Source of the DNA: Acidimicrobiia bacterium
GTDB lineage: Bacteria > Actinomycetota > Acidimicrobiia > Acidimicrobiales > Poriferisodalaceae
NCBI GenBank assembly: GCA_022826045.1
Contig: JAJDVQ010000100.1
Span: 1 to 64,000, forward strand
Length of the DNA stretch: 64,000 nt
Direction of reading: 5' to 3'
Of the stretch, positions 34,946 through 49,473 are shown one piece after another (the stretch's first letter is position 1; each line of letters starts with the position of its first letter). The notes beneath the pieces were generated by a model that had not been told where the DNA came from, ran no database searches, and saw only the letters and a program-made list of their open reading frames with translations. A program made the translations under genes and the position numbers.

Positions 34946-35749
34946 ATGCCGAACACGATGATGGACACTTGGGCCGCTGGCGACGAGACGCTGGGCACGT
35001 GGCTTTCAATGGCGTCGAGCCATTCGGCGGAGATCGCCGGGCGGGCCGGCTTCGACTACGTCTGCGTCGACATGCAGCACGGCGTGGCCGACTACCAAGT
35101 CGCCGTCGAGATGATGCAGGCCATCGAGATGGGCGGCGGCACGCCGATCGTGCGGGTGCCGTGGAACGAGCCGGGCATCATCGGGCGGGTGCTCGACGCG
35201 GGGGCGCGGGGCGTTGTTGTGCCCATGGTGAACTCGGTCGCCGAGGCGCAGGCCGCCGTGTCTGCCTGCAAGTACCCGCCGCTGGGTGCCCGCAGCTTCG
35301 GTCCGGTGCTGGTGGCTGCCCGGGCTGCGGCGGGGGAGAACTACTTCGAGGTGGCGAACGACACCACGGCCTGCATTCCCATGATCGAGACCCGCCAAGC
35401 AGTCGAGGCGCTGGATGAGATCCTGGCGATCGAGGGCGTCGACGCCATCTACGTCGGGCCGGCCGACCTGTCGATCAGCTACGGCTACGGCCCCGGCTAC
35501 ACCGACGATCACGCCGACTACAAGGCAGCACTCGAGCACATCGCCGAGCGGTGCGCCGCACACGGCGTGGTGCCGGGCATCCACTCCACGGCTGGGCTGT
35601 CGGCGGACCGCCGCGGCAAAGGCTTCCGCATGCAAACCGTGGCGGGCGACGCCATGGCGCTCGGCCGCGGCATCGCCCGCGACCTGCGCACCGCCCGCGA
35701 ATCCGGCACAGCCGAAGCCGCCACCGGAGCCGACTCCAAGATCTACTGA
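34946..35749 (+). CDS. HpcH/HpaI-family aldolase
   Basis: Class II metal-dependent aldolase of the 4-hydroxy-2-oxoheptanedioate aldolase family, 267 residues. Family motifs include FDYVCVDMQHGVADY with the conserved D-x-Q-H-G, TPIVRVPWNEPG, ARGVVVPMVNSVAEA, ACIPMIETRQAVEALDEI with the metal-binding Glu, and AIYVGPADLS with the metal-binding Asp. It cleaves or condenses pyruvate or oxaloacetate with aldehydes in aromatic or sugar-acid breakdown. It is probably co-transcribed with the NIPSNAP gene. Confidence 0.9.
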   Translation: MPNTMMDTWAAGDETLGTWLSMASSHSAEIAGRAGFDYVCVDMQHGVADYQVAVEMMQAIEMGGGTPIVRVPWNEPGIIGRVLDAGARGVVVPMVNSVAEAQAAVSACKYPPLGARSFGPVLVAARAAAGENYFEVANDTTACIPMIETRQAVEALDEILAIEGVDAIYVGPADLSISYGYGPGYTDDHADYKAALEHIAERCAAHGVVPGIHSTAGLSADRRGKGFRMQTVAGDAMALGRGIARDLRTARESGTAEAATGADSKIY

Positions 35750-37573: not shown

Positions 37574-37778
37574 CTCGTTGCCTCTCATGACGGCACTGCC
37601 CGCGGCGTCCCGCGAAGGCGTCTTGAGATTATCTCGATCGAACAGCGCCTCGGGCGACGCGAAGGTGCGTTCGCTGCTCTTGGCGTCCGAGGCTCATGGC
37701 GCGGTGCTCCGTATGAACCGGGCGGTGCTCGGAGCCCGGACAGTACGATCCGCTGCGGGGACCGACCTGGAGGGGAAC

Positions 37779-38927
37779 GTGGACGTCGACTATCCGATCA
37801 TCTCGGCCGATTCGCACATCGCGGAGGCACGCAACACTTACGTCGACTACATCGACCCCAAGTGGCGCGACGTGGCGCCACGGGTTGAGTGGACCGAAGA
37901 GCGCGGCGATGTGTATGTCATCGACGGCATGAAGCGCACGATCGACATGGGTCTCATTGCGGCCGCAGGCCAGAAGCCCGAGGAGCTCAAGCGCAGCGCG
38001 GCGTACGAGGAACTGCCGGCCAGCAGCTACGACCCGGCCACGCGGACTGCCGACCAGGACCGTGACGGCGTGTCGGCAGAGGTGATCTACCCGTCGGTGG
38101 GCATGGTGCTGTGCAACCACTCCGATCCCGATTACAAGAAGGCGGCCATGGACGCCTACAACCGGTGGATCGCCGACTACTGCTCAGTGGACACCGACCG
38201 GCTGCTGGCAGTGGGGCAGACGGCACTCCGCTCGGTGGAAGAGGCCATCAGCGACATCGAGGCCATGGCCGAGGCGGGCATGCGCGGCGTGATGATGTCG
38301 GGCAACCCCCACACGGAGTTCGACTTTGACGACCCCCGCTGGGATCCGTTCTGGCAGTCCGCCGTCGACCTCAACTTGCCCGTGTCGTGGCACATCCTCA
38401 CCAGCCGCGGCCAAGGCCGGCCCCGCGGGCCGAAAGCGAACGCCTTCATGACCATCATCCGGGCCAACCAGGACATCATGGGCACCTTGGTGTTCGGCGG
38501 CGTGTTCGAGCGCAACCCGGGCTTGCGGGTGGTCTGCGTCGAGGCCGACGCGGGTTGGGTGCCGCATTTCATGTACCGGATGGACCACGCCTACAAGCGC
38601 CACCGGTACTGGCTGCCGCCCGGCCAGGAGCTGTCCAAGCTGCCCAGCGAGTACTTCAGCGAGCACATCTACACGACGTTCCAGGACGACTGGGTTGCGT
38701 TCAAGATGGTGAACGACGTCAACCACAAGCGGCTGCTGTGGGCCAACGATTTCCCGCACTCCGACAGCACCTGGCCGTGGAGCCAAGAACTGCTCGACGA
38801 GCACTCGGCCAATCTGACGCCGCAGCAGACCCAGGACATCCTCTGCAACAACTCGGCCGAGCTGTACGACATCGACCTGTCGAAGCTGCCCGTCGGAGGC
38901 GACCGTCTGGCGGCCAACGCAGCCTGA
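37779..38927 (+). CDS. Amidohydrolase-2 family metal-dependent hydrolase
   Basis: TIM-barrel hydrolase/decarboxylase of 382 residues. It has ISADSHIAEARNTYVDYIDP at the N-terminus with the metal-binding D-x-H, SVGMVLCNHSDPDY, LPVSWHILTSRGQG with a histidine ligand, and LLWANDFPHSDSTWPWS near the C-terminus with the catalytic Asp. The frame is open back to 37209 over the divergent gene; GTG 37779 is chosen for GGAGGGG at 37769-37775. TACGAT at 37746-37751 could be its -10. It is related to, but not a copy of, the enzyme at 10986. Confidence 0.88.
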   Translation: MDVDYPIISADSHIAEARNTYVDYIDPKWRDVAPRVEWTEERGDVYVIDGMKRTIDMGLIAAAGQKPEELKRSAAYEELPASSYDPATRTADQDRDGVSAEVIYPSVGMVLCNHSDPDYKKAAMDAYNRWIADYCSVDTDRLLAVGQTALRSVEEAISDIEAMAEAGMRGVMMSGNPHTEFDFDDPRWDPFWQSAVDLNLPVSWHILTSRGQGRPRGPKANAFMTIIRANQDIMGTLVFGGVFERNPGLRVVCVEADAGWVPHFMYRMDHAYKRHRYWLPPGQELSKLPSEYFSEHIYTTFQDDWVAFKMVNDVNHKRLLWANDFPHSDSTWPWSQELLDEHSANLTPQQTQDILCNNSAELYDIDLSKLPVGGDRLAANAA

Positions 38928-39134: not shown

Positions 39135-39911
39135 ATGCAGAGCCACGAAGTCGACTACGAGGTCTTCGGAGACGACTTGCAGTTTGTCGAGGTCGAACTG
39201 GACCCCGGCGAGACCGTCATCGGCGAGGCCGGCACGATGATGTACCTCGAGAACGGCATCACGTTCGAGTCGAAGATGGGCGACGGCTCCGAGCCCGATT
39301 CCGGGCTGTGGGGCAAGCTCAAGTCGGCCGGCAAGCGAGCAATGACGGGCGAGGGCCTGTTCATCACGCACTTCACCAATACCGGTGCCCCCGGCAAGGC
39401 CAAGGCGGCATTCGCGGCGGCCTATCCCGGCAAGATCATTCCCGTCGATCTCGCAAAGATGGGCGGCGAACTGATCGCCCAGCGGGATGCCTTCCTGTGC
39501 GCGGCGTTGGGCACCAAGATCGATATTGCCTTCCAGCGGGGGATCGGCACCGGTCTGTTCGGCGGCGAGGGCTTCGTGCTCCAGCGCCTGTCGGGCGACG
39601 GAATGGCATTTCTGCACGCAGGCGGTTCGATCCGGGCCATCCAGCTGAACAACCAGACCGTTCGGCTCGACACGGGCTGCTTGGTTGCCATGCAGCCGTC
39701 GCTGCAGTATTCGATCGAACGGGCGGGCAACCTCAAGTCGATGTTCTTCGGCGGCGAGGGCCTGTTCCTGGCGACCGTGTCGGGCACCGGCTGGGTGTGG
39801 CTGCAGTCGCTGCCGTTCGAGCGGCTCTCCTCGCGTGTGCTGGCCAATGCGGTCGGCCCGCAGTCGGACGACTCCCGCGGCGTGCTGGCGGGGATGTTCG
39901 AGCGCAGCTGA
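39135..39911 (+). CDS. AIM24-like (TIGR00266-type) protein
   Basis: A 258-residue beta-rich protein of the AIM24/TIGR00266 family. Indicators are [20 protein letters not shown] near residues 17-36, [29 protein letters not shown] and [20 protein letters not shown]. The bacterial function is unknown; mitochondrial AIM24 affects membrane organisation. ATG 39135 has AGGAG at 39121-39125. TACCTT at 39073-39078 could be the -10, starting transcription near the in-frame GTG 39084. Confidence 0.88.
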
Positions 39912-39970: not shown

Positions 39971-40011
39971 TTGACGCGGCTCGCCGTCCCGGCCCTACAG
40001 TCATCGCCATG
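39971..40011 (+). promoter_or_regulatory. Leaderless promoter of the CxxC protein gene
   Basis: TTGACG (39971-39976) and TACAGT (39996-40001), separated by 19 bp, are followed after 7 nt by ATG 40009. Both boxes and the spacing support a leaderless transcript, which may extend into the selenoprotein gene. Confidence 0.55.
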
Positions 40012-41073
40012 CAGCTGACTTCGAGTCGCATCAGCGTCGACGATCTCGCCGAGGCCCAGGAGGCCTGCCACGCCCGCGGGTGGACCGACGGCCTGCCGGT
40101 GGTGCCGCCCACCGACGAAGCGGTTGCGGCCTGCCTGGAATGGGCGATGCTGCCGCCCGATCACCTCATCGGCATCGAACCGGTGCGGGCACGCTCCATC
40201 ACCGCGGAGAAGGCAGCCGTCAATGCCGTCATGGCGGGGTGCCTGCCGCCGCACTTCCCGGTCGTCGTGACCGCGCTCACCGCGCTGCTGCAGCCCCAAT
40301 TCGGCCTGCACGGCCCCACGGCGTCCACCGGCGGCTGCGCGCTGCTGCTGATCGTGAACGGCCCCATCCGGCACGAGCTGGCCATGGACGCCACCTTCAG
40401 CGTGCTCGGGGGCGCCGACCGGTCGCGCGCCGTCATCGCACGAGCCGTACGGCTGGTGCTGGCCAACGTGCTCGATGTCAAGCCCGGCGGCATCGATCGC
40501 TCCACGCTCGGCCACCCCGGCAAGCTCGGCTACTGCATCGCCGAGGACGAGGAGGCCACGGGCTGGATCTCGCTCGGCGATCAGCGGCTCGGCACCGCGC
40601 CCGCCGAGCGAGGGCACGTGTCATCGGTGACAGCGGTGGCCTCGATGGCGCCCCGGCAGGTCATGAACGAGTGGACGACCGACCCCACCGAGCTGTGCGA
40701 GACGCTTGCCGCGGAGATCCGGGCAAGCCAGCTCAACTACTCCATCTGGCCGGGCAACTACGTGGTGGTGCTGCCGCCGCAGCTGCGGAAGCACTTCGAC
40801 GCGGCCGGCTGGACCAAGAACGACATTGCCGCCTGCGTGTACGAGCGGGCACGGGTGCGGCGGGGCGACTGGGCGAGCGTCGGCAAGGGAGCAATCGTCA
40901 AGGACCGGGCCGAGCGCGAGCACCCCGCGTTGGAATCGCCCGAGGATCTGCTGATCGTTGCTGCAGGCGGGCCAGCGGGCGGTTTTGCAGCAGTCATCCC
41001 GCCGTGGCTCGGCACACGCAGTCACGCGGCCACGGTGGCCGTCGGCGCTTGCGTGGACTGCGAAGTGCGCTGA
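40009..41073 (+). CDS. Conserved hypothetical protein with C-terminal CxxC, next to selenoprotein
   Basis: A 354-residue cytosolic protein without a domain that I can name. Striking conserved-looking stretches are GWTDGLPVVPPTDEAVAACL, HGPTASTGGCALLLIVNGPI and AEKAAVNAVMAGCLPPHFPV. It contains ten cysteines and ends with CVDCEVR, a CxxC motif three residues from the C-terminus. The selenoprotein gene follows 260 bp downstream on the same strand. A joint thiol/selenol redox function is inference from this context. The start is fixed by the leaderless promoter. Confidence 0.75.
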   Translation: MQLTSSRISVDDLAEAQEACHARGWTDGLPVVPPTDEAVAACLEWAMLPPDHLIGIEPVRARSITAEKAAVNAVMAGCLPPHFPVVVTALTALLQPQFGLHGPTASTGGCALLLIVNGPIRHELAMDATFSVLGGADRSRAVIARAVRLVLANVLDVKPGGIDRSTLGHPGKLGYCIAEDEEATGWISLGDQRLGTAPAERGHVSSVTAVASMAPRQVMNEWTTDPTELCETLAAEIRASQLNYSIWPGNYVVVLPPQLRKHFDAAGWTKNDIAACVYERARVRRGDWASVGKGAIVKDRAEREHPALESPEDLLIVAAGGPAGGFAAVIPPWLGTRSHAATVAVGACVDCEVR

Positions 41074-41283: not shown

Positions 41284-41333
41284 CCGGAGCTCGCCGAGCC
41301 AAGCTGTCGATTCAGGCCTCCAAGGAGAACAGC

Positions 41334-41852
41334 GTGGAATTGCTGGACCCGACCCACGAGCAAGATCCCGCCGGGTTCGCAGCTCCGACGCGGCTGGCCA
41401 CCTTGGAGGGCGCCACCGTCGGCGTGATCTCCAACGGCAAGGAGAACACCAAGCCGTTCTTCGACCATGTCGAGCGCCTGCTGCGCGATCGCCATGGCGT
41501 GGCCAAAGTGATCCGGCGGATCAAGGCCAGCTACAGCGCGCCGGCGCAGCACGAGCTGCTGGCCGAGGCGATGGGCTGGGACGCGGTGCTGGCCGGCGTC
41601 GGCGACTGAGGCAGCTGCTCGTCGTGCAGTCTGCACGACGCCGTCGCCGCCGAACGGGTCGGCGTGCCCGCGATCAGCGTGATGACCAGCGCGTTCATCG
41701 ACGCCGCCGAGCTGATGGCCCGGGTGCAAGGCGTGCCGGACCACCCGTTCACCGTGATCGAGCACCCCATCGCCAGCGCGGATGCAGCAGGGCTCGAAGC
41801 CCGAGCCGAGACGGCAGTGGAGCAGGCCGTCAGGGTGCTGGTGGCGCATTAG
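41334..41852 (+). CDS. UGSC-family selenoprotein (in-frame TGA as selenocysteine)
   Basis: A 172-residue protein read through TGA 41607-41609 as selenocysteine 92. The residues after it are Gly-Ser-Cys-Ser-Ser-Cys, giving the U-G-S-C motif for which the family is named. The N-terminal part (LATLEGATVGVISNGKENTK, FFDHVERLLRD) and the C-terminal part (VPAISVMTSAFIDAAELMAR, FTVIEHPIAS) form one continuous alpha/beta protein; the frame stays open for 81 codons to TAG. AAGGAG at 41322-41327 lies 6 nt before the GTG start. A SECIS-like hairpin begins 10 nt after the TGA. The role is presumably redox and unproven. Standard gene callers would cut this gene in two. Confidence 0.88.
41620..41640 (+). 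promoter_or_regulatory. Bacterial SECIS-like hairpin
   Basis: CGTCGTGCA (41620-41628) pairs perfectly with TGCACGACG (41632-41640) around the loop GTC (41629-41631). The loop begins with G and lies 19 nt after the TGA. These match the known bacterial SECIS rules: a stem-loop just 3' of the UGA with a G in the first loop positions. It would recruit SelB with Sec-tRNA. Confidence 0.8.
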
Positions 41853-41940: not shown

Positions 41941-42408
41941 ATGGTGAACCCCATTCCCGACGACTACCCGCGCATCTCGGCGTCGATGAGCGTCGATGGC
42001 GCCGCAGACGCCATCGCGTTCTATACCGAGATTCTCGGGATGACCGAGCGGATGCGCATCGATATGGGCGGCAGGATCGGCCACTCCGAGCTTGCATTGG
42101 GCGACTCGCTCATCATGATTGCCGACGAGTTCCCCGAGATGGAGTTCCACTCGCCCAAGCACTACGGAGGCTCCCCGGTGCAGATGAGCGTGTACGTGGA
42201 GGACGTCGATGCCACGTTCGCAGCGGCGCTCGCAGCCGGTGCCACCGAGGTACGGCCTGTCGTGGATCAGTTCTACGGCGACCGCTCGGGCATGATCGAG
42301 GACCCGTGGGGCCATCGCTGGAACCTCGCCACCCACATCGAGGATGTCGATCCCGAAGAGATGGCCCGCCGCTCGGAAGCCGCCATGGCCGAGATGGCCG
42401 ACAGCTGA
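41941..42408 (+). CDS. VOC-superfamily (glyoxalase/PhnB-like) protein
   Basis: A 155-residue protein of the vicinal-oxygen-chelate superfamily. SMSVDGAADAIAFYTEILGM at residues 14-33, GRIGHSELALGDSLIMIADE, VQMSVYVEDVDATFAAALAA and MIEDPWGHRWNLATHIEDVD are typical; the DPWGHRW element carries the C-terminal Glu/His-type site. Members include dioxygenases, resistance proteins and PhnB-like proteins; the substrate is unknown. The frame is open upstream, but ATG 41941 with AGGAG upstream fits the family start. Confidence 0.88.
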   Translation: MVNPIPDDYPRISASMSVDGAADAIAFYTEILGMTERMRIDMGGRIGHSELALGDSLIMIADEFPEMEFHSPKHYGGSPVQMSVYVEDVDATFAAALAAGATEVRPVVDQFYGDRSGMIEDPWGHRWNLATHIEDVDPEEMARRSEAAMAEMADS

Positions 42409-44105: not shown

Positions 44106-44169
44106 CAACGACATCGCGGCCCGACTCGGCCGTCTCGTCTAGCTTGCATTCCGATTGTCGGCCTTCGGG

Positions 44170-47100
44170 ATGTGGGCTGTGCGCGAGTACGTGGTGTTCG
44201 ACCTAGAGGCCAATGCGGATCGCTCCGACCCGCCGGCCCATGAGATCATCGAGATCGGGGCTGTGCTCGTCGTCGACGGCGTCGAAGCTGGCGAGTTCGC
44301 AACGTTGGCACGGCCAACCCGGCCGTTGCGGCCCCAGACGCGGGAACTGACGGGCTTGGCTGATGAGGACTTGGCGCAAGCGCCGACCTTGGCCGAGGCC
44401 TTGCAACGCTTCGCCGCATTCGTCGGCAACCGCCCGCTCATGGCCCACAACGGGTTCGGCTACGACTTCCCGCTGATGGATGCCGCGGCGACCCAGTCAG
44501 GATTGCCTGCGATCGGCCGCCAACGCCTCGACACGCTGGAACTGGCTCATGTGGCGTTTCCGCGGGCTGGTCGGGAGATGGCCAGCAGCGTCGACAAGAG
44601 CAGAGCGCCGCTTGGCCGCAGTCTCGACGATCTGGCAGAACGGTTGCTTGGGCGCGAGGTCCGGGACACACACCGGGCACTTGGCGATGCCCGTCTGTTG
44701 GCCGATGTGCTTGTTCCGTTGCTCGGCTCGATCAATCAGGCTTCACCGTTCCGCCGTCTTCAGCGCTGGGTGCTGCACGCGGCCGGCCATCCGTGGTCGG
44801 CGCTGCTGCGCGTTGAGCCCGACCCGCCATCACTTGCCGCGACGATCCCGGTGCCCGTGCGGCGGCAACGGCCCGAACCGACAGGCAGATTCGATCCAGA
44901 TGCCGTCGCCCGCATGCTTGACGACGGCGGCGTGCTGATGTCGCAAGGGCGCTCACCACGCGCGCAGCAGGTCGAGATGGCTCGTCTGACGGCGTTAGCG
45001 CTGGCCAATGGCGAACGTCGGCTCATCGAAGCCCCGACGGGCACCGGCAAGACCTTCGCCTATCTCGCGCCCGCGATCGAATATGCCCGCGCCGGCGGTG
45101 CCACGGTCGCTCTCGCCCCGCATTCCAAGGTGCTCCAAGACCAGATAGCGCACTCGCTTGAGGAGCTGACGGAGTTGTTGGCGCCGTTCAACTGGGTGCT
45201 GCTCAAGGGCAGGAGCAGCTACATCGATGTGGCTGCGCTGGAGAGCGAGCTTCACGAGATGGGCATTCACGGCGACGATTCCGGCGCTGCGCCGCTGGCG
45301 GACGGTCACGACGAAGGTGCAGGTTCGCCCCGGGCAGTGCGCGGGCTCGCGCTCGCGGTCCTGAGCGGCTGGGTCTCCCAGACGCCGACGGGCGATTGGG
45401 ACGACCTGAACACGTGGGCGCTGAGCAGCGATTTCCGAAGCGTCATGTCAAGCCTTCGGTTTGTGCTCTCGGTGAGCGAGCGGCCGGGTCCGGCGACGAC
45501 AGATTTGGATAGGCGGTGCTTCTATCGCCGCGCTCGTGACGGGCTGCGCCATGCGGACGTGGCCGTGCTGAACCATGCATTGGTCGTGACCGACGACGAG
45601 TGGCTTGATCATGCCAAGCACTTGGTGCTCGACGAGGCGCACAACCTCGAAGACTCGGCGACCGATGCGTTGACAGACGAAATCAGTGCGAGCCAGATCG
45701 AGCAACTCTGCGACGCAATCGTTCCGAGCGGCGGCATAGGCGGAACCGCCAGTCGGCTCGCCCGCGCCGCTCGCTGGTCGGTGCGTGAGTCGCCGTTGAC
45801 GGACCTGCGCCGCTGTGTCTCCGCCGTGCGGGATCAGTTGCCGCGCTTCGGCTCGGAACTGTCGGCCTACGTGCGGGTGCGAACGGCAGCGAGTGCTGAC
45901 GATCGTTACCCCTCGTCCTACCGAATCCGGCGCGGCATCGACACTGCGCACCCCGACTACTACGCAGTGCTGCGCGAAGGGCGGTCGCTGGCCGAAGCCT
46001 TGGAAGGCATCGTCGGCGAGTTGGATGAAATCAATCTGCCCATGCAACTCCTCGGCCGGTACCGGCGCGACCGCCTCGAAGCCGAGATACGACATCTTGG
46101 GCGCTTTGCCCGAAATGCTGCCAAGACGGTCCGCCGCGTGATCCACGCCGACGCAGGCCCGTCTGGCCCGTCCAGTTCCCAGACTGCGGGGCATGACCGT
46201 GGCGGCGGTGCGATGCCCAGCGCCAGTCTCGTTGCCAGTCTCGAAGAGCAGCAGCGAATAGCCGTCGGTCAGATCGAGCATGTCGACGGGCGCTGGACAT
46301 GGCTGCTGCTGCATGTGCCCCTCTCGGTAGCGCCCCAACTACGGCAATTGTGGAATGACCTCGATGCCACCGTCGCAACGTCGGCGACACTGCAAGTGGG
46401 CGGCAGCTTCAGCCACATCATCAATTCACTGGGACTTGGTTCTGCCGAGACGACGGCGCTGCCCACGCCGTTCGAAGCGCTCAGCGAGCAGCATCTGCTG
46501 ATCTTGGCTGACTGGCTGCCATCGCCCAGAGCGCGCCTGATGGACGAGTTCACCGAGGCGGCAGGCCGAGAGACGGGAAGGCTGATGCTGCTGTCCGGCG
46601 GCCGGGCGATGGCGTTGTTCACAGCCCGTTCTCGAATGGAAGCGGCTCGCAACAAGCTCCGTGACTGCCTCGATCAGCACGGAATTCCGCTGCTCACCCA
46701 AGGCGACGCACCGGCGCCCGCGCTCGTCGCCCGGATGAGAACTGAGATGGCCACCAGCCTGCTCGCACTGCGCTCGTTCTGGGAGGGCGTCGACATCCCC
46801 GGCGAGGCGCTGAGCTTGCTTCTCTTGGAGAAGATCCCCTTCGACTCTCCCGCCGACCCGATCTCGGGCGCTCGGATGGAAGCTGTGGAGCAGCAGGGCA
46901 AGGATGGGTTCGCCGACTACGCCGTGCCACGCGCCGCACTGAGGATGGCCCAGGGAGCAGGACGGCTGATCCGTACGGCAGACGATCGCGGCGTGACCGT
47001 GATGCTCGACAACCGCCTGTGCCGAGCCACCTCATACTCCGATCAGATCCTCGGCACGCTGCCCGGCCCGCCCGCGCAGCACCGCGTACGTGATCCCGAC

Positions 47101-49473
47101 GACGCGTATGACCGCATCTGCGGGCATCTCGACGGCATCGAGCTGACCGATGAGCTGCGGAGCGCCATGGATGCAGTCCCGGTCGACGACACCCTCGCGA
47201 AGATCCGAGCGCTCGCGCTCGACGAGGATCAGGCCCGGAACGGCGACATCGTCGAGCGGCGGCTGGACCGCGTGCGTCAGATCTTCGGCTTCGAACAATG
47301 GCGGCCCGGCCAGCTCGAGACGATGCGGCGATTCATGGCAGGCGACGATGCGCTCTCGGTGCTGCCGACAGGGTCGGGCAAGTCGATCACCTACCAGATT
47401 CCGGCGCTGCTGATGCCCGGCGTGACGCTCGTGCTGTCGCCGTTGATCTCGTTGATGAACGATCAAGTCGAGAACTTGCGCCGCCGTGGCATCACCGAGG
47501 TGGCAGCCATCCACAGCGGCGTGGGGCAGAGCGAATGGCGCGACATCCTGCGGGGCGCAGCCCGGGGCGACTACCGGCTGCTGTACATCAGCCCCGAGCG
47601 GCTGTGGTCGCAGGAGTTCATCAGCCTGCTCTCCAAGGTCCACGTTGCCCGGATTGCCATCGACGAAGCGCACTGCATCTCGCAGTGGGGACACACGTTC
47701 CGGCCCGAGTACGCCCAGATTCCCGAGGCGATCGAACTGCTCGATGGGCCGCCGTCGGAACATCGCCGCAGCAACGTCCCAGGCATGACCTCGCCTGCCG
47801 CTGACCGCCCCCCGCTGCTGGCAGTGACGGCCACCGCCAACGCCCGAGTGCGCGAAGACATCGTGGCTGCACTGAACCTGCGGACTCGTGAGGCGACGGT
47901 GCTGTCGCCGGACAGGCCCGAGATCAGTTACTTCACCGAAGACTGTGCGAACCGCAGCGACCGCGATGTCCGCATCGTTCAGGTGGTGGAGGCGTTTCGC
48001 CGCCAGGCAACTGTGGTCTATGTGCCGACCCGAAGTGACGCCGAGCGTGTCAGCGGGTTGCTGCGCGTTGCTGGCCATACGGTGCGCTCCTACCACGGAG
48101 GCATGGAGACGACGGCCCGGTCGCATGTCGAGGACGCCTTCCGTCATGGCGAGATCGATGTCGTCGTGGCCACCAAGGCCTTCGGCATGGGCATCGACAA
48201 GCCTGACATCGCCCTGATCGTGCATTCGGAGATGCCCGCCACCATCGAGGAGTACGTCCAAGAGACCGGCAGGGCCGCCCGCGGTGCCGGTCAGCCCGGC
48301 ATGCCGTCAGTCGGCACAGCAGTACTGCTGAGGATGCCGAGGGACTGTTCCATTCATCGAGTCTTCGTTCGCAGTGCTGCGCCGTCAATCGGGCAGGTGC
48401 GCAGCATTTGGTCGAGGCTGGCACCGGGCGTGGGCGCATACGTCCCGGATGATCTCGTCGGCGACGCCGGCGACGAGGCCCGCGAGACCGACGCGGAATC
48501 AGTCGCGACCTCGCTCGCCGTCCACTACTTGGCGCGAGCAGGCATTCTGAAGCGCTACCCCGACACGCCGTGGGAGGGCCGTGTCACGATCATCGACGAC
48601 ACCCGCAAGCGGCTCAGCGAGCTGCGCCTGAGCGACGCGTCGGGCGATTCCGACACGCCGAATGCCGACGGGGTCGCGGGTCTGCAGAGAGACGCAGCGG
48701 TCGAACCGGAGTTCATCGCACGCGCCCAGCAGCTCATTGAACTGGCGGAGCAACATGACGGTCGTTACGACGCACCGCAGTGGTCGAAGGACCTTGCGCG
48801 ATCCGAGGTGGAGGTCGCGCAGGATCTGCTTGAGCTCCACCACCGGGACGTCATCGGTTTCACCGTCTGGAAGTACGGATGGGTGCTCGAGCGTTCGCAG
48901 CGCGAACCGGACTGGGCAGAGATCGAGCGACAATGCGAACAACGCCGCAGCGAGGTGGCCGAGAAGTCTGACCGTGCCAAGGCTTTCGCCCGCGACCGAG
49001 CCGCGTGTCGGGTGACTGCCCTTCTCGATTATCTCGATGCATCGAATTCGCTGCCCCAGGCAGCCGACGGCGGCTGCGGTCGGTGTGACGTGTGCTCTGA
49101 CCTGCCGCGGCCGTGGGCCGACAGCCATCTCACCGAGGCCGGCCTGCGTGAGGCATTGCCGGTCGCTCAAATCATCCTCGGCCTGCTGGCAGACACCGCT
49201 CATTGGAAATACTCACGCAAGAACGTCGAACGCTGTCTCGCAGGCAGCCTGTGGGGTGCCGATGCCGCCTGGGCGACTGATGCGCCTTCGCAGCTGGCGA
49301 AGCACCCGTCAGCAGGCCGACTGGCCTTCCTCGGCGAGAAAGACGTCAACGCAGCAGTTGACGTGTTGATCGATGAGGGCCTCGTCTCTGCCGTCGCGGA
49401 CGAGTTCGACGGCACTTCTTACGTTCGGCTCGAACTCACCGAATGCGGCTCTGAACGCGTCAGCGCAATCTAG
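44170..49473 (+). CDS. Exonuclease-DinG-RecQ fusion helicase
   Basis: A 1767-residue three-part enzyme. Residues 1 to about 180 are a DEDDh exonuclease (YVVFDLEANADRS, MAHNGFGYDFPLMD, HRALGDARLLADVL). Residues about 255-985 are a DinG-like helicase: Walker A EAPTGTGKT near 287 and DEAHN near 487. Only one Cys remains where DinG normally has four Fe-S ligands (NYLC has become SYID). Residues about 1035-1700 are a RecQ helicase: LPTGSGKS near 1065, DEAHC near 1165, QETGRAARG and zinc cysteines CGRCDVC near 1637, then a winged-helix-like end. ATG 44170 is chosen; TTG 44155 is possible. A role in DNA repair or defence is inferred. Confidence 0.9.
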   Translation: MWAVREYVVFDLEANADRSDPPAHEIIEIGAVLVVDGVEAGEFATLARPTRPLRPQTRELTGLADEDLAQAPTLAEALQRFAAFVGNRPLMAHNGFGYDFPLMDAAATQSGLPAIGRQRLDTLELAHVAFPRAGREMASSVDKSRAPLGRSLDDLAERLLGREVRDTHRALGDARLLADVLVPLLGSINQASPFRRLQRWVLHAAGHPWSALLRVEPDPPSLAATIPVPVRRQRPEPTGRFDPDAVARMLDDGGVLMSQGRSPRAQQVEMARLTALALANGERRLIEAPTGTGKTFAYLAPAIEYARAGGATVALAPHSKVLQDQIAHSLEELTELLAPFNWVLLKGRSSYIDVAALESELHEMGIHGDDSGAAPLADGHDEGAGSPRAVRGLALAVLSGWVSQTPTGDWDDLNTWALSSDFRSVMSSLRFVLSVSERPGPATTDLDRRCFYRRARDGLRHADVAVLNHALVVTDDEWLDHAKHLVLDEAHNLEDSATDALTDEISASQIEQLCDAIVPSGGIGGTASRLARAARWSVRESPLTDLRRCVSAVRDQLPRFGSELSAYVRVRTAASADDRYPSSYRIRRGIDTAHPDYYAVLREGRSLAEALEGIVGELDEINLPMQLLGRYRRDRLEAEIRHLGRFARNAAKTVRRVIHADAGPSGPSSSQTAGHDRGGGAMPSASLVASLEEQQRIAVGQIEHVDGRWTWLLLHVPLSVAPQLRQLWNDLDATVATSATLQVGGSFSHIINSLGLGSAETTALPTPFEALSEQHLLILADWLPSPRARLMDEFTEAAGRETGRLMLLSGGRAMALFTARSRMEAARNKLRDCLDQHGIPLLTQGDAPAPALVARMRTEMATSLLALRSFWEGVDIPGEALSLLLLEKIPFDSPADPISGARMEAVEQQGKDGFADYAVPRAALRMAQGAGRLIRTADDRGVTVMLDNRLCRATSYSDQILGTLPGPPAQHRVRDPDDAYDRICGHLDGIELTDELRSAMDAVPVDDTLAKIRALALDEDQARNGDIVERRLDRVRQIFGFEQWRPGQLETMRRFMAGDDALSVLPTGSGKSITYQIPALLMPGVTLVLSPLISLMNDQVENLRRRGITEVAAIHSGVGQSEWRDILRGAARGDYRLLYISPERLWSQEFISLLSKVHVARIAIDEAHCISQWGHTFRPEYAQIPEAIELLDGPPSEHRRSNVPGMTSPAADRPPLLAVTATANARVREDIVAALNLRTREATVLSPDRPEISYFTEDCANRSDRDVRIVQVVEAFRRQATVVYVPTRSDAERVSGLLRVAGHTVRSYHGGMETTARSHVEDAFRHGEIDVVVATKAFGMGIDKPDIALIVHSEMPATIEEYVQETGRAARGAGQPGMPSVGTAVLLRMPRDCSIHRVFVRSAAPSIGQVRSIWSRLAPGVGAYVPDDLVGDAGDEARETDAESVATSLAVHYLARAGILKRYPDTPWEGRVTIIDDTRKRLSELRLSDASGDSDTPNADGVAGLQRDAAVEPEFIARAQQLIELAEQHDGRYDAPQWSKDLARSEVEVAQDLLELHHRDVIGFTVWKYGWVLERSQREPDWAEIERQCEQRRSEVAEKSDRAKAFARDRAACRVTALLDYLDASNSLPQAADGGCGRCDVCSDLPRPWADSHLTEAGLREALPVAQIILGLLADTAHWKYSRKNVERCLAGSLWGADAAWATDAPSQLAKHPSAGRLAFLGEKDVNAAVDVLIDEGLVSAVADEFDGTSYVRLELTECGSERVSAI

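Follow-up and report, generated by a model that had tools for sequence, protein, structure and literature searches.

A "UGSC-containing protein" was described in 2008 in the GOS survey, which, in the portions of its text available to us, assigns the protein no function, suggests a likely thioredoxin-like (Trx-like) fold and counts it with the commonest selenoproteins in that marine data set (PMC2398784). In GOS reads it is found fused to a conserved domain, the Unknown_1 of Zhang and Gladyshev (PMC2398784). Excerpts of later papers name the protein again (PMC9402790, PMC9312934, PMC5029168, PMC7539508, PMC13188914), it makes up 8.2% of the selenoprotein genes in a later marine set, and UGSC-motif selenoproteins occur in Geodermatophilaceae, a family with a tRNA-Sec of anticodon CUA (PMC5330540). 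The examined parts of this literature give no function for UGSC. Members of the family tend to be split by annotation, so that the operon is easily missed.

The locus described here lies in a stretch of 64,000 nucleotides from an Acidimicrobiia bacterium (the window). Its UGSC gene is an ordinary member of the known family, and nothing that we found separates it from UGSC. A sequence-only reading of the same DNA had overstated the novelty of the gene, since the family was already known from the 2008 GOS survey and from the models PF24696 and NF041046. What is new in this analysis is the near-constant pairing of UGSC with a second gene, together with the thioredoxin-like domain of many of these partners and a remote similarity of UGSC to GrdB and PrdB.

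The UGSC gene and its in-frame TGA

The features of the gene are as follows.
41322..41327, + strand: ribosome binding site AAGGAG, with a 6-nt spacer to the GTG (from the sequence and congeners)
41334..41852, + strand: UGSC-family selenoprotein gene, 172 amino acids with Sec at residue 92 (from the frame, Pfam and NCBIfam matches, nine orthologues and dN/dS)
41607..41609, + strand: TGA in frame, decoded as U92 (selenocysteine) and conserved in position in 4/4 UGSC genes of the genome and in 9/9 orthologues
41620..41640, + strand: bacterial SECIS-type hairpin of 9 bp with loop GTC, its conserved core 41621-41628 pairing with 41632-41639

A single frame with one in-frame TGA runs from GTG 41334 to TAG 41850-41852, and reading the TGA as U yields 172 residues that include U92-G-S-C-S-S-C. 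The sequence-only reading had joined two apparent open reading frames across this TGA, noted the resulting U-G-S-C and placed the gene in the UGSC family, and we find all of its coordinates to be correct. The Pfam model PF24696 (UGSC) spans the TGA, matching residues 2-170 (E 2e-51, 175 bits against a cut-off of 25), and the NCBIfam model NF041046, "UGSC family (seleno)protein", is also above its cut-off (132.5 bits against 125). Members of the family are expected to have Sec or Cys first in xGSC, and in the window gene that codon is TGA. The GTG start, which had been proposed from the strong ribosome binding site, is likewise borne out: AAGGAG lies at the equivalent place in four of five congeners and is replaced by AGGAGG in the fifth, and orthologue L194 has ATG at the start position.

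The TGA is retained in every one of the nine orthologues examined, which comprise five congeners and four relatives from the same family. Between the window gene and the congeners, dN/dS is 0.07–0.13 before the TGA (80 codons) and 0.06–0.15 behind it (76 codons). These similar values on both sides indicate that the part behind the TGA evolves as translated sequence in the same frame as the part before it. For the four family relatives, where synonymous sites have reached saturation, pN/pS behind the TGA is 0.13–0.21. Homologues that stop at residue 91 without a conserved continuation would have spoken against a selenoprotein; instead UGSC homologues share a conserved sequence behind the TGA, and this part is under purifying selection.

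Bacterial SECIS elements are hairpins behind the UGA whose small apical loop has a G near its beginning. The window hairpin has this form. Its stem, loop and position had been recognized from the letters alone, and our analysis upholds them, the first loop base being a G that sits 19 nt after the TGA. The hairpin is more than chance. When codons were drawn by usage with the peptide fixed (400 draws), the folding energy of the window hairpin had a p of about 0.01 (z -2.5), and 8 of 200 dinucleotide shuffles of 41607-41655 reached the observed energy (z -1.95). The same synonymous-codon test gave p at or below 0.05 in 19 of 29 Sec loci, the others being L057, L065, L071, L073, L077, L078, L079, L082, L083 and L090, and in one of four Cys loci. 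A G is the first loop base in 23 of the 29 Sec loci.

Across these 29 loci (28 of them distinct), the eight inner pairs are formed in 84.4% of cells, a value that none of 500 shuffles reached and that compares with 13–56% in slid registers. Support from covariation is weaker than that from pairing. Both-side changes in the stem amount to nine cells. The covariation score of 0.162 is higher than in 499 of 500 shuffles, yet sliding the register by +2 raises it to 0.174, several slid registers equal or exceed the true one on counts of both-side changes or pair types, and the number of pair types is reached by 116 of 500 shuffles. Because the peptide is conserved as well, the better evidence for the hairpin is the synonymous-codon test together with orthologues L196 and L198, in which two synonymous changes have turned a G-C pair of the stem into A-T. 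A gathering-level Rfam scan of the window gave no match at the hairpin or elsewhere, which says little, as Rfam is not known to include a general model of the bacterial SECIS element.

Selenocysteine machinery and distribution

The genome (G000; 3.64 Mb in 104 contigs, 90.8% complete) encodes the machinery for selenocysteine. The sequence-only reading had named selA, selB, selC and selD as the genes to look for, and a lack of selB or selC as the finding that would count against it; all four are present above cut-off. The tRNA-Sec gene on contig C18 scores 67 bits against a cut-off of 47 and has, by reading of its sequence, the anticodon TCA. The same contig carries selA (386 bits) and selB (268 bits), and selD lies on C90 (352 bits). 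Only scores above cut-off were counted because the models also match controls: those for tRNA-Sec, selB and selD match all 14 control genomes, exceeding the cut-off in 5, 2 and 2, respectively, and that for selA matches four of the 14, with one above cut-off. The selD gene (L022, G000:C90:12620-13573, - strand) has an in-frame TGA of its own beyond which a conserved frame continues, and is probably itself a selenoprotein gene.

Four UGSC genes, that of the window and three others, are found in this genome, each with the TGA at the same place. Among 296 genomes sampled across the phylum, 24 have a UGSC match and 22 have one above cut-off. We inspected 39 places in this sample and removed two from all counts (G271 and G196, which score below cut-off and are unrelated sequence). 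Kept among the remaining 37 loci are the C-terminal fragment L091, the contig-end fragment L092 and L081, which runs to a contig end. The sequence-only reading had asked whether homologues have Cys or Sec at residue 92. This first motif position is encoded by TGA in 29 of the 37; five have Cys, one has Met, and two are fragments without the site. A separate contig search found one locus, L023; its query was back-translated with Cys in place of Sec, so that only Cys forms could be found. No related loci were found in the viral contigs searched.

All 18 genomes of the phylum sample with a TGA-type UGSC gene have a tRNA-Sec match of at least 60 bits. Of the four UGSC genomes without a TGA, G294 has a match of 58.7 bits and G136 a borderline 49.9, and G102 and G150, which carry only Cys-form UGSC, have none above cut-off. 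Seven genomes without UGSC were also checked for tRNA-Sec, with matches of 69.8 bits in G183 and a borderline 48.7 in G134. Seventeen of the 18 TGA-type genomes have a selA match with E no higher than 4e-110; the exception, G036, has a TGA-type UGSC gene and a tRNA-Sec of 77.9 bits, yet is absent from the 189 genomes with a selA match, perhaps through a gap in the assembly. Since selA is common in the phylum sample (above cut-off in 181 of 296 genomes), it is by itself a weak predictor.

A TGA is a stop by default, and the region could in principle be a broken gene or two short proteins separated by an ordinary stop or a sequencing error. This reading is scarcely tenable, contradicted as it is by the TGA in 9/9 orthologues and 4/4 paralogues, by purifying selection behind it and by the presence of the Sec machinery. 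Given the family match across the TGA, that machinery, the conserved TGA and the selection behind it, we regard 41334-41852 as a genuine UGSC-family selenoprotein gene with next to no reservation. Decoding of its UGA as selenocysteine would depend on tRNA-Sec and SelB, with the hairpin just downstream as an aid.

A near-constant partner gene and its neighbourhood

A second gene accompanies UGSC in the window and in most other genomes.
40009..41073, + strand: near-constant UGSC partner, about 354 amino acids from ATG 40009 (371 from TTG 39958), in no Pfam or NCBIfam family

Comparison of the partner and 31 of its relatives with Pfam, NCBIfam and PDB profiles gave no convincing match (lowest E 0.022). 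A homologue of the partner lies within 306 bp of UGSC, measured between match ends, on the same strand in 34 of the 37 loci. Of the three exceptions, L079 lies 735 bases from a contig end, L081 runs to one, and L091 is a fragment. The partner is upstream of UGSC in most loci and downstream in others, and in L080, L082, L083 and L084 the two are encoded in one frame. The partner family has an invariant Cys of its own. A predicted structure for the partner was discarded, as its mean pLDDT was 33 with an input of the window sequence and one Cys-type locus.

In the phylum sample the partner is present in 22 of 22 UGSC genomes as against one (G183) of 274 others, and in 298 genomes of the order UGSC is present in 150, the partner in 150, both in 146 and neither in 144; the first comparison gives a Fisher p of 2e-32, although related genomes are not independent, and the two samples overlap. 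Thus 146 of the 154 order genomes with either gene have both. UGSC occurs without the partner in G311, G350, G517 and G535, and the partner without UGSC in G342, G391, G467 and G562, the matches in G391 and G562 being weak (E near 1e-3).

Several of the unpaired genes can be described further. G517 and G535 carry TGA-type UGSC genes (L200, L201) in genomes without any partner match, and both contigs have nearby a gene that reads as amino-acid-permease-like. G183 has a tRNA-Sec above cut-off and partner-like matches with no UGSC match; several of its partner-like matches lie in two long frames of 664 and 782 amino acids (L155, G183:C272). The window genome itself has a fifth partner (L154 5972-7576, G000:C34); it carries a thioredoxin-like domain (CPTC), and no UGSC gene was seen next to it. 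Each of the five congeners has one more partner match than UGSC matches.

From this pairing we conclude with high confidence that the UGSC protein and the product of 40009-41073 are the two halves of a single enzyme. The partner is very likely the same as Unknown_1. Papers by Haft on selenoprotein families and neighbourhoods may already treat the neighbours of UGSC.

A thioredoxin-like domain with an invariant CxTC is present in 15 of the 21 inspected partners with N-terminal extensions. The profile built from the N-terminal domains of these 15 matches solved thioredoxins (E 2e-6); a Pfam scan of one copy of the domain gave no match. The partner in the window does not have the domain.

Further genes surround the pair in the window.
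35009..35746, + strand: HpcH/HpaI aldolase-family gene (Pfam)
37629..38927, + strand: PF04909 amidohydrolase (Pfam), start uncertain
39144-39911, + strand: AIM24-family gene, between the amidohydrolase and the partner
41941..42408, + strand: glyoxalase/dioxygenase-fold gene (Pfam), just downstream of UGSC

The amidohydrolase is upstream in all nine orthologous stretches. In the same-family relatives it lies directly ahead of the pair, in the order amidohydrolase, partner, UGSC, and the partner stop is separated from the UGSC start by 0–2 nt as read from the sequence, compared with 260 nt between the two genes in the window. The aldolase-family gene is upstream in four of the nine stretches (L192, L196, L198, L199), a count affected by the ending of some stretches before that distance; it is possible that the aldolase acts in the same pathway as UGSC. 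The AIM24-family and glyoxalase/dioxygenase-fold genes are each found in 5/5 congeners with no match in the four same-family relatives. Further along the window, 44155-49473 (+ strand) is one frame of 1772 amino acids that combines, by Pfam, an exonuclease of RNase_T type with two helicases, one of them DinG-like (Helicase_C_2) and the other a RecQ-like DEAD helicase. This three-part fusion looks unusual.

The gene order of 19 loci was compared and selected neighbours were scanned, which is not a census. An OpuAC betaine-binding gene lies about 4.7 kb from UGSC in L056, ABC-transporter genes that read as betaine type adjoin L057 in the same genome, and a homocysteine S-methyltransferase gene adjoins L088. 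We consider a link to betaine a lead only. Other neighbours of UGSC-partner pairs include nitrile hydratase alpha, TRAP transporters, CoA-transferase III, acyl-CoA dehydrogenase and MaoC. Such mixed neighbourhoods may reflect several substrate-specific versions of one reductase. Alternatively, the two genes could form a selenoprotein unit with a chemistry other than metabolite reduction, such as that of a lyase, a transferase or a metal-handling protein using selenocysteine. The absence of a recognized family for the partner, its invariant Cys and the mixture of nitrile hydratase, CoA transferases, and betaine and TRAP transporters all accord with this; however, redox turnover is suggested by the UxxC motif and by the fusion of a Trx domain to many partners, and we think the alternative unlikely.

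Predicted fold, proposed chemistry and probable relation to GrdB and PrdB

The predicted structure of the UGSC protein alternates strands and helices in a Rossmann-like arrangement and places Sec at the N-terminal end of the helix that follows strand 3. The model has a mean pLDDT of 79 (65–69 for the other four models) from an input alignment of two sequences. The best 50 of 1496 PDB matches are weak (query TM 0.30–0.55) and mostly Rossmann, flavodoxin-like or similar, and there is no thioredoxin among these 50. Consistent with this, the UGSC profile gave no alignment with eight of the 15 partner Trx domains (E 0.2). A thioredoxin fold is therefore unsupported. The predicted structure and the profile alignment agree that the fold is probably not that of thioredoxin, which does not thereby prove a GrdB function.

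These results bear on the suggestion that the protein, while a true selenoprotein, is a thioredoxin-fold thiol oxidoreductase or antioxidant instead of a metabolic reductase. A Trx-like reading was offered by the GOS authors (PMC2398784), appears also in the accessible part of a 2026 review (PMC13188914), and would suit the UxxC motif. However, the Rossmann-like model and its PDB matches speak against it, and the UGSC profile that fails against the Trx domains does align with GrdB and PrdB. We judge this suggestion to be quite improbable.

In our phylum sample, GrdB has the arrangement strand, UGTGTRC, helix, GIPT, and a PrdB-like group has strand, UPLC-like motif, helix. Profiles were built from 24 of 30 GRDB loci; of the six left out (L137-L140, L144, L149), three consist of the N-terminal part only and in three the frame could not be placed. 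By hhalign, with E-values that refer to single comparisons, the UGSC profile, built from 34 proteins, can be aligned with the C-termini of 13 GrdB proteins (E 5e-5) and with 11 PrdB-like proteins (E 2.2e-5), Sec falling on Sec in both. The alignments cover 88 columns with probabilities of 46–76%, and full-length GrdB gives E 2.1e-4. None of 150 column-shuffled decoys reached the GrdB or PrdB scores in either case, and reversed profiles gave E 0.12 or worse. With the motif masked, UGSC still aligns with GrdB at E 1.3e-4 and with the PrdB-like proteins at 2.4e-4. Real control profiles gave E 0.41 for the partner, 0.2 for the Trx domain and 0.05 for GrdE. These decoy-controlled comparisons point to a homologous Sec domain in UGSC and GrdB/PrdB. 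The Pfam GRDB model (PF07355), which ends before the Sec motif, has no match at E 10 among the 34 UGSC members.

The short PrdB-like genes L141-L143, L145-L148 and L150-L153 extend past the end of PF07355, with U-P-L-C-like motifs when read through TGA; the GRDB model stops just before their Sec.

The similarity to GrdB is remote at the level of sequence profiles, and on this basis the UGSC protein is probably the selenocysteine domain of a GrdB/PrdB-type reductase. We found no earlier statement of this similarity in the portions of literature searched. We also considered the partner as a GrdE homologue and rejected this, as it does no better than chance (E 0.45) against the aligned sequences of 12 GrdE-like upstream genes. 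As the partner is unlike GrdE, the UGSC unit need not share the pyruvoyl chemistry of glycine reductase.

As a whole, the locus seems best explained, and we would hold this with some confidence, as a selenoprotein that forms a two-gene unit with the partner and acts as a GrdB-like, thioredoxin-driven reductase. Sec92 would attack or reduce a small substrate held together with the partner, U92 and C95 would then close to a selenenyl-sulphide, and thioredoxin, which is fused to the partner in many relatives, would reopen it; we regard these three steps, taken together, as evenly poised between right and wrong. UGSC paralogues may be substrate-specific, and the substrate at the window locus could belong to a pathway with the PF04909 amidohydrolase and perhaps the HpcH/HpaI aldolase. 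More tentatively, UGSC and its partner may constitute an unrecognized class of selenoenzyme that is thioredoxin-driven and GrdB-like, works without the pyruvoyl subunit GrdE, has multiplied in the order to give substrate-specific paralogues with neighbours such as betaine-type transporters, nitrile hydratase and amidohydrolase, and acts reductively on nitrogen-containing or CoA-linked small molecules. The near-constant partner, the link to thioredoxin and the remote tie to glycine and proline reductases make UGSC a testable enzyme.

The window locus resembles the described UGSC family (PF24696, NF041046) in its full-length match, its U-G-S-C and its SECIS-type hairpin, and pairing or fusion with a domain of no known function is common to both; to this the window locus adds the PF04909 amidohydrolase. 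Compared with GrdB and PrdB, the Sec subunits of glycine, betaine, sarcosine and D-proline reductases, UGSC differs in having neither the GrdB N-terminal domain nor a Pfam GRDB match, and in a partner unrelated to GrdE. However, the remote profile homology begins at the strand that precedes Sec and reaches the C-terminus, UGTGTRC of GrdB corresponds to UGSCSSC of the UGSC protein with Sec aligned to Sec, and thioredoxin is the likely source of electrons in both.
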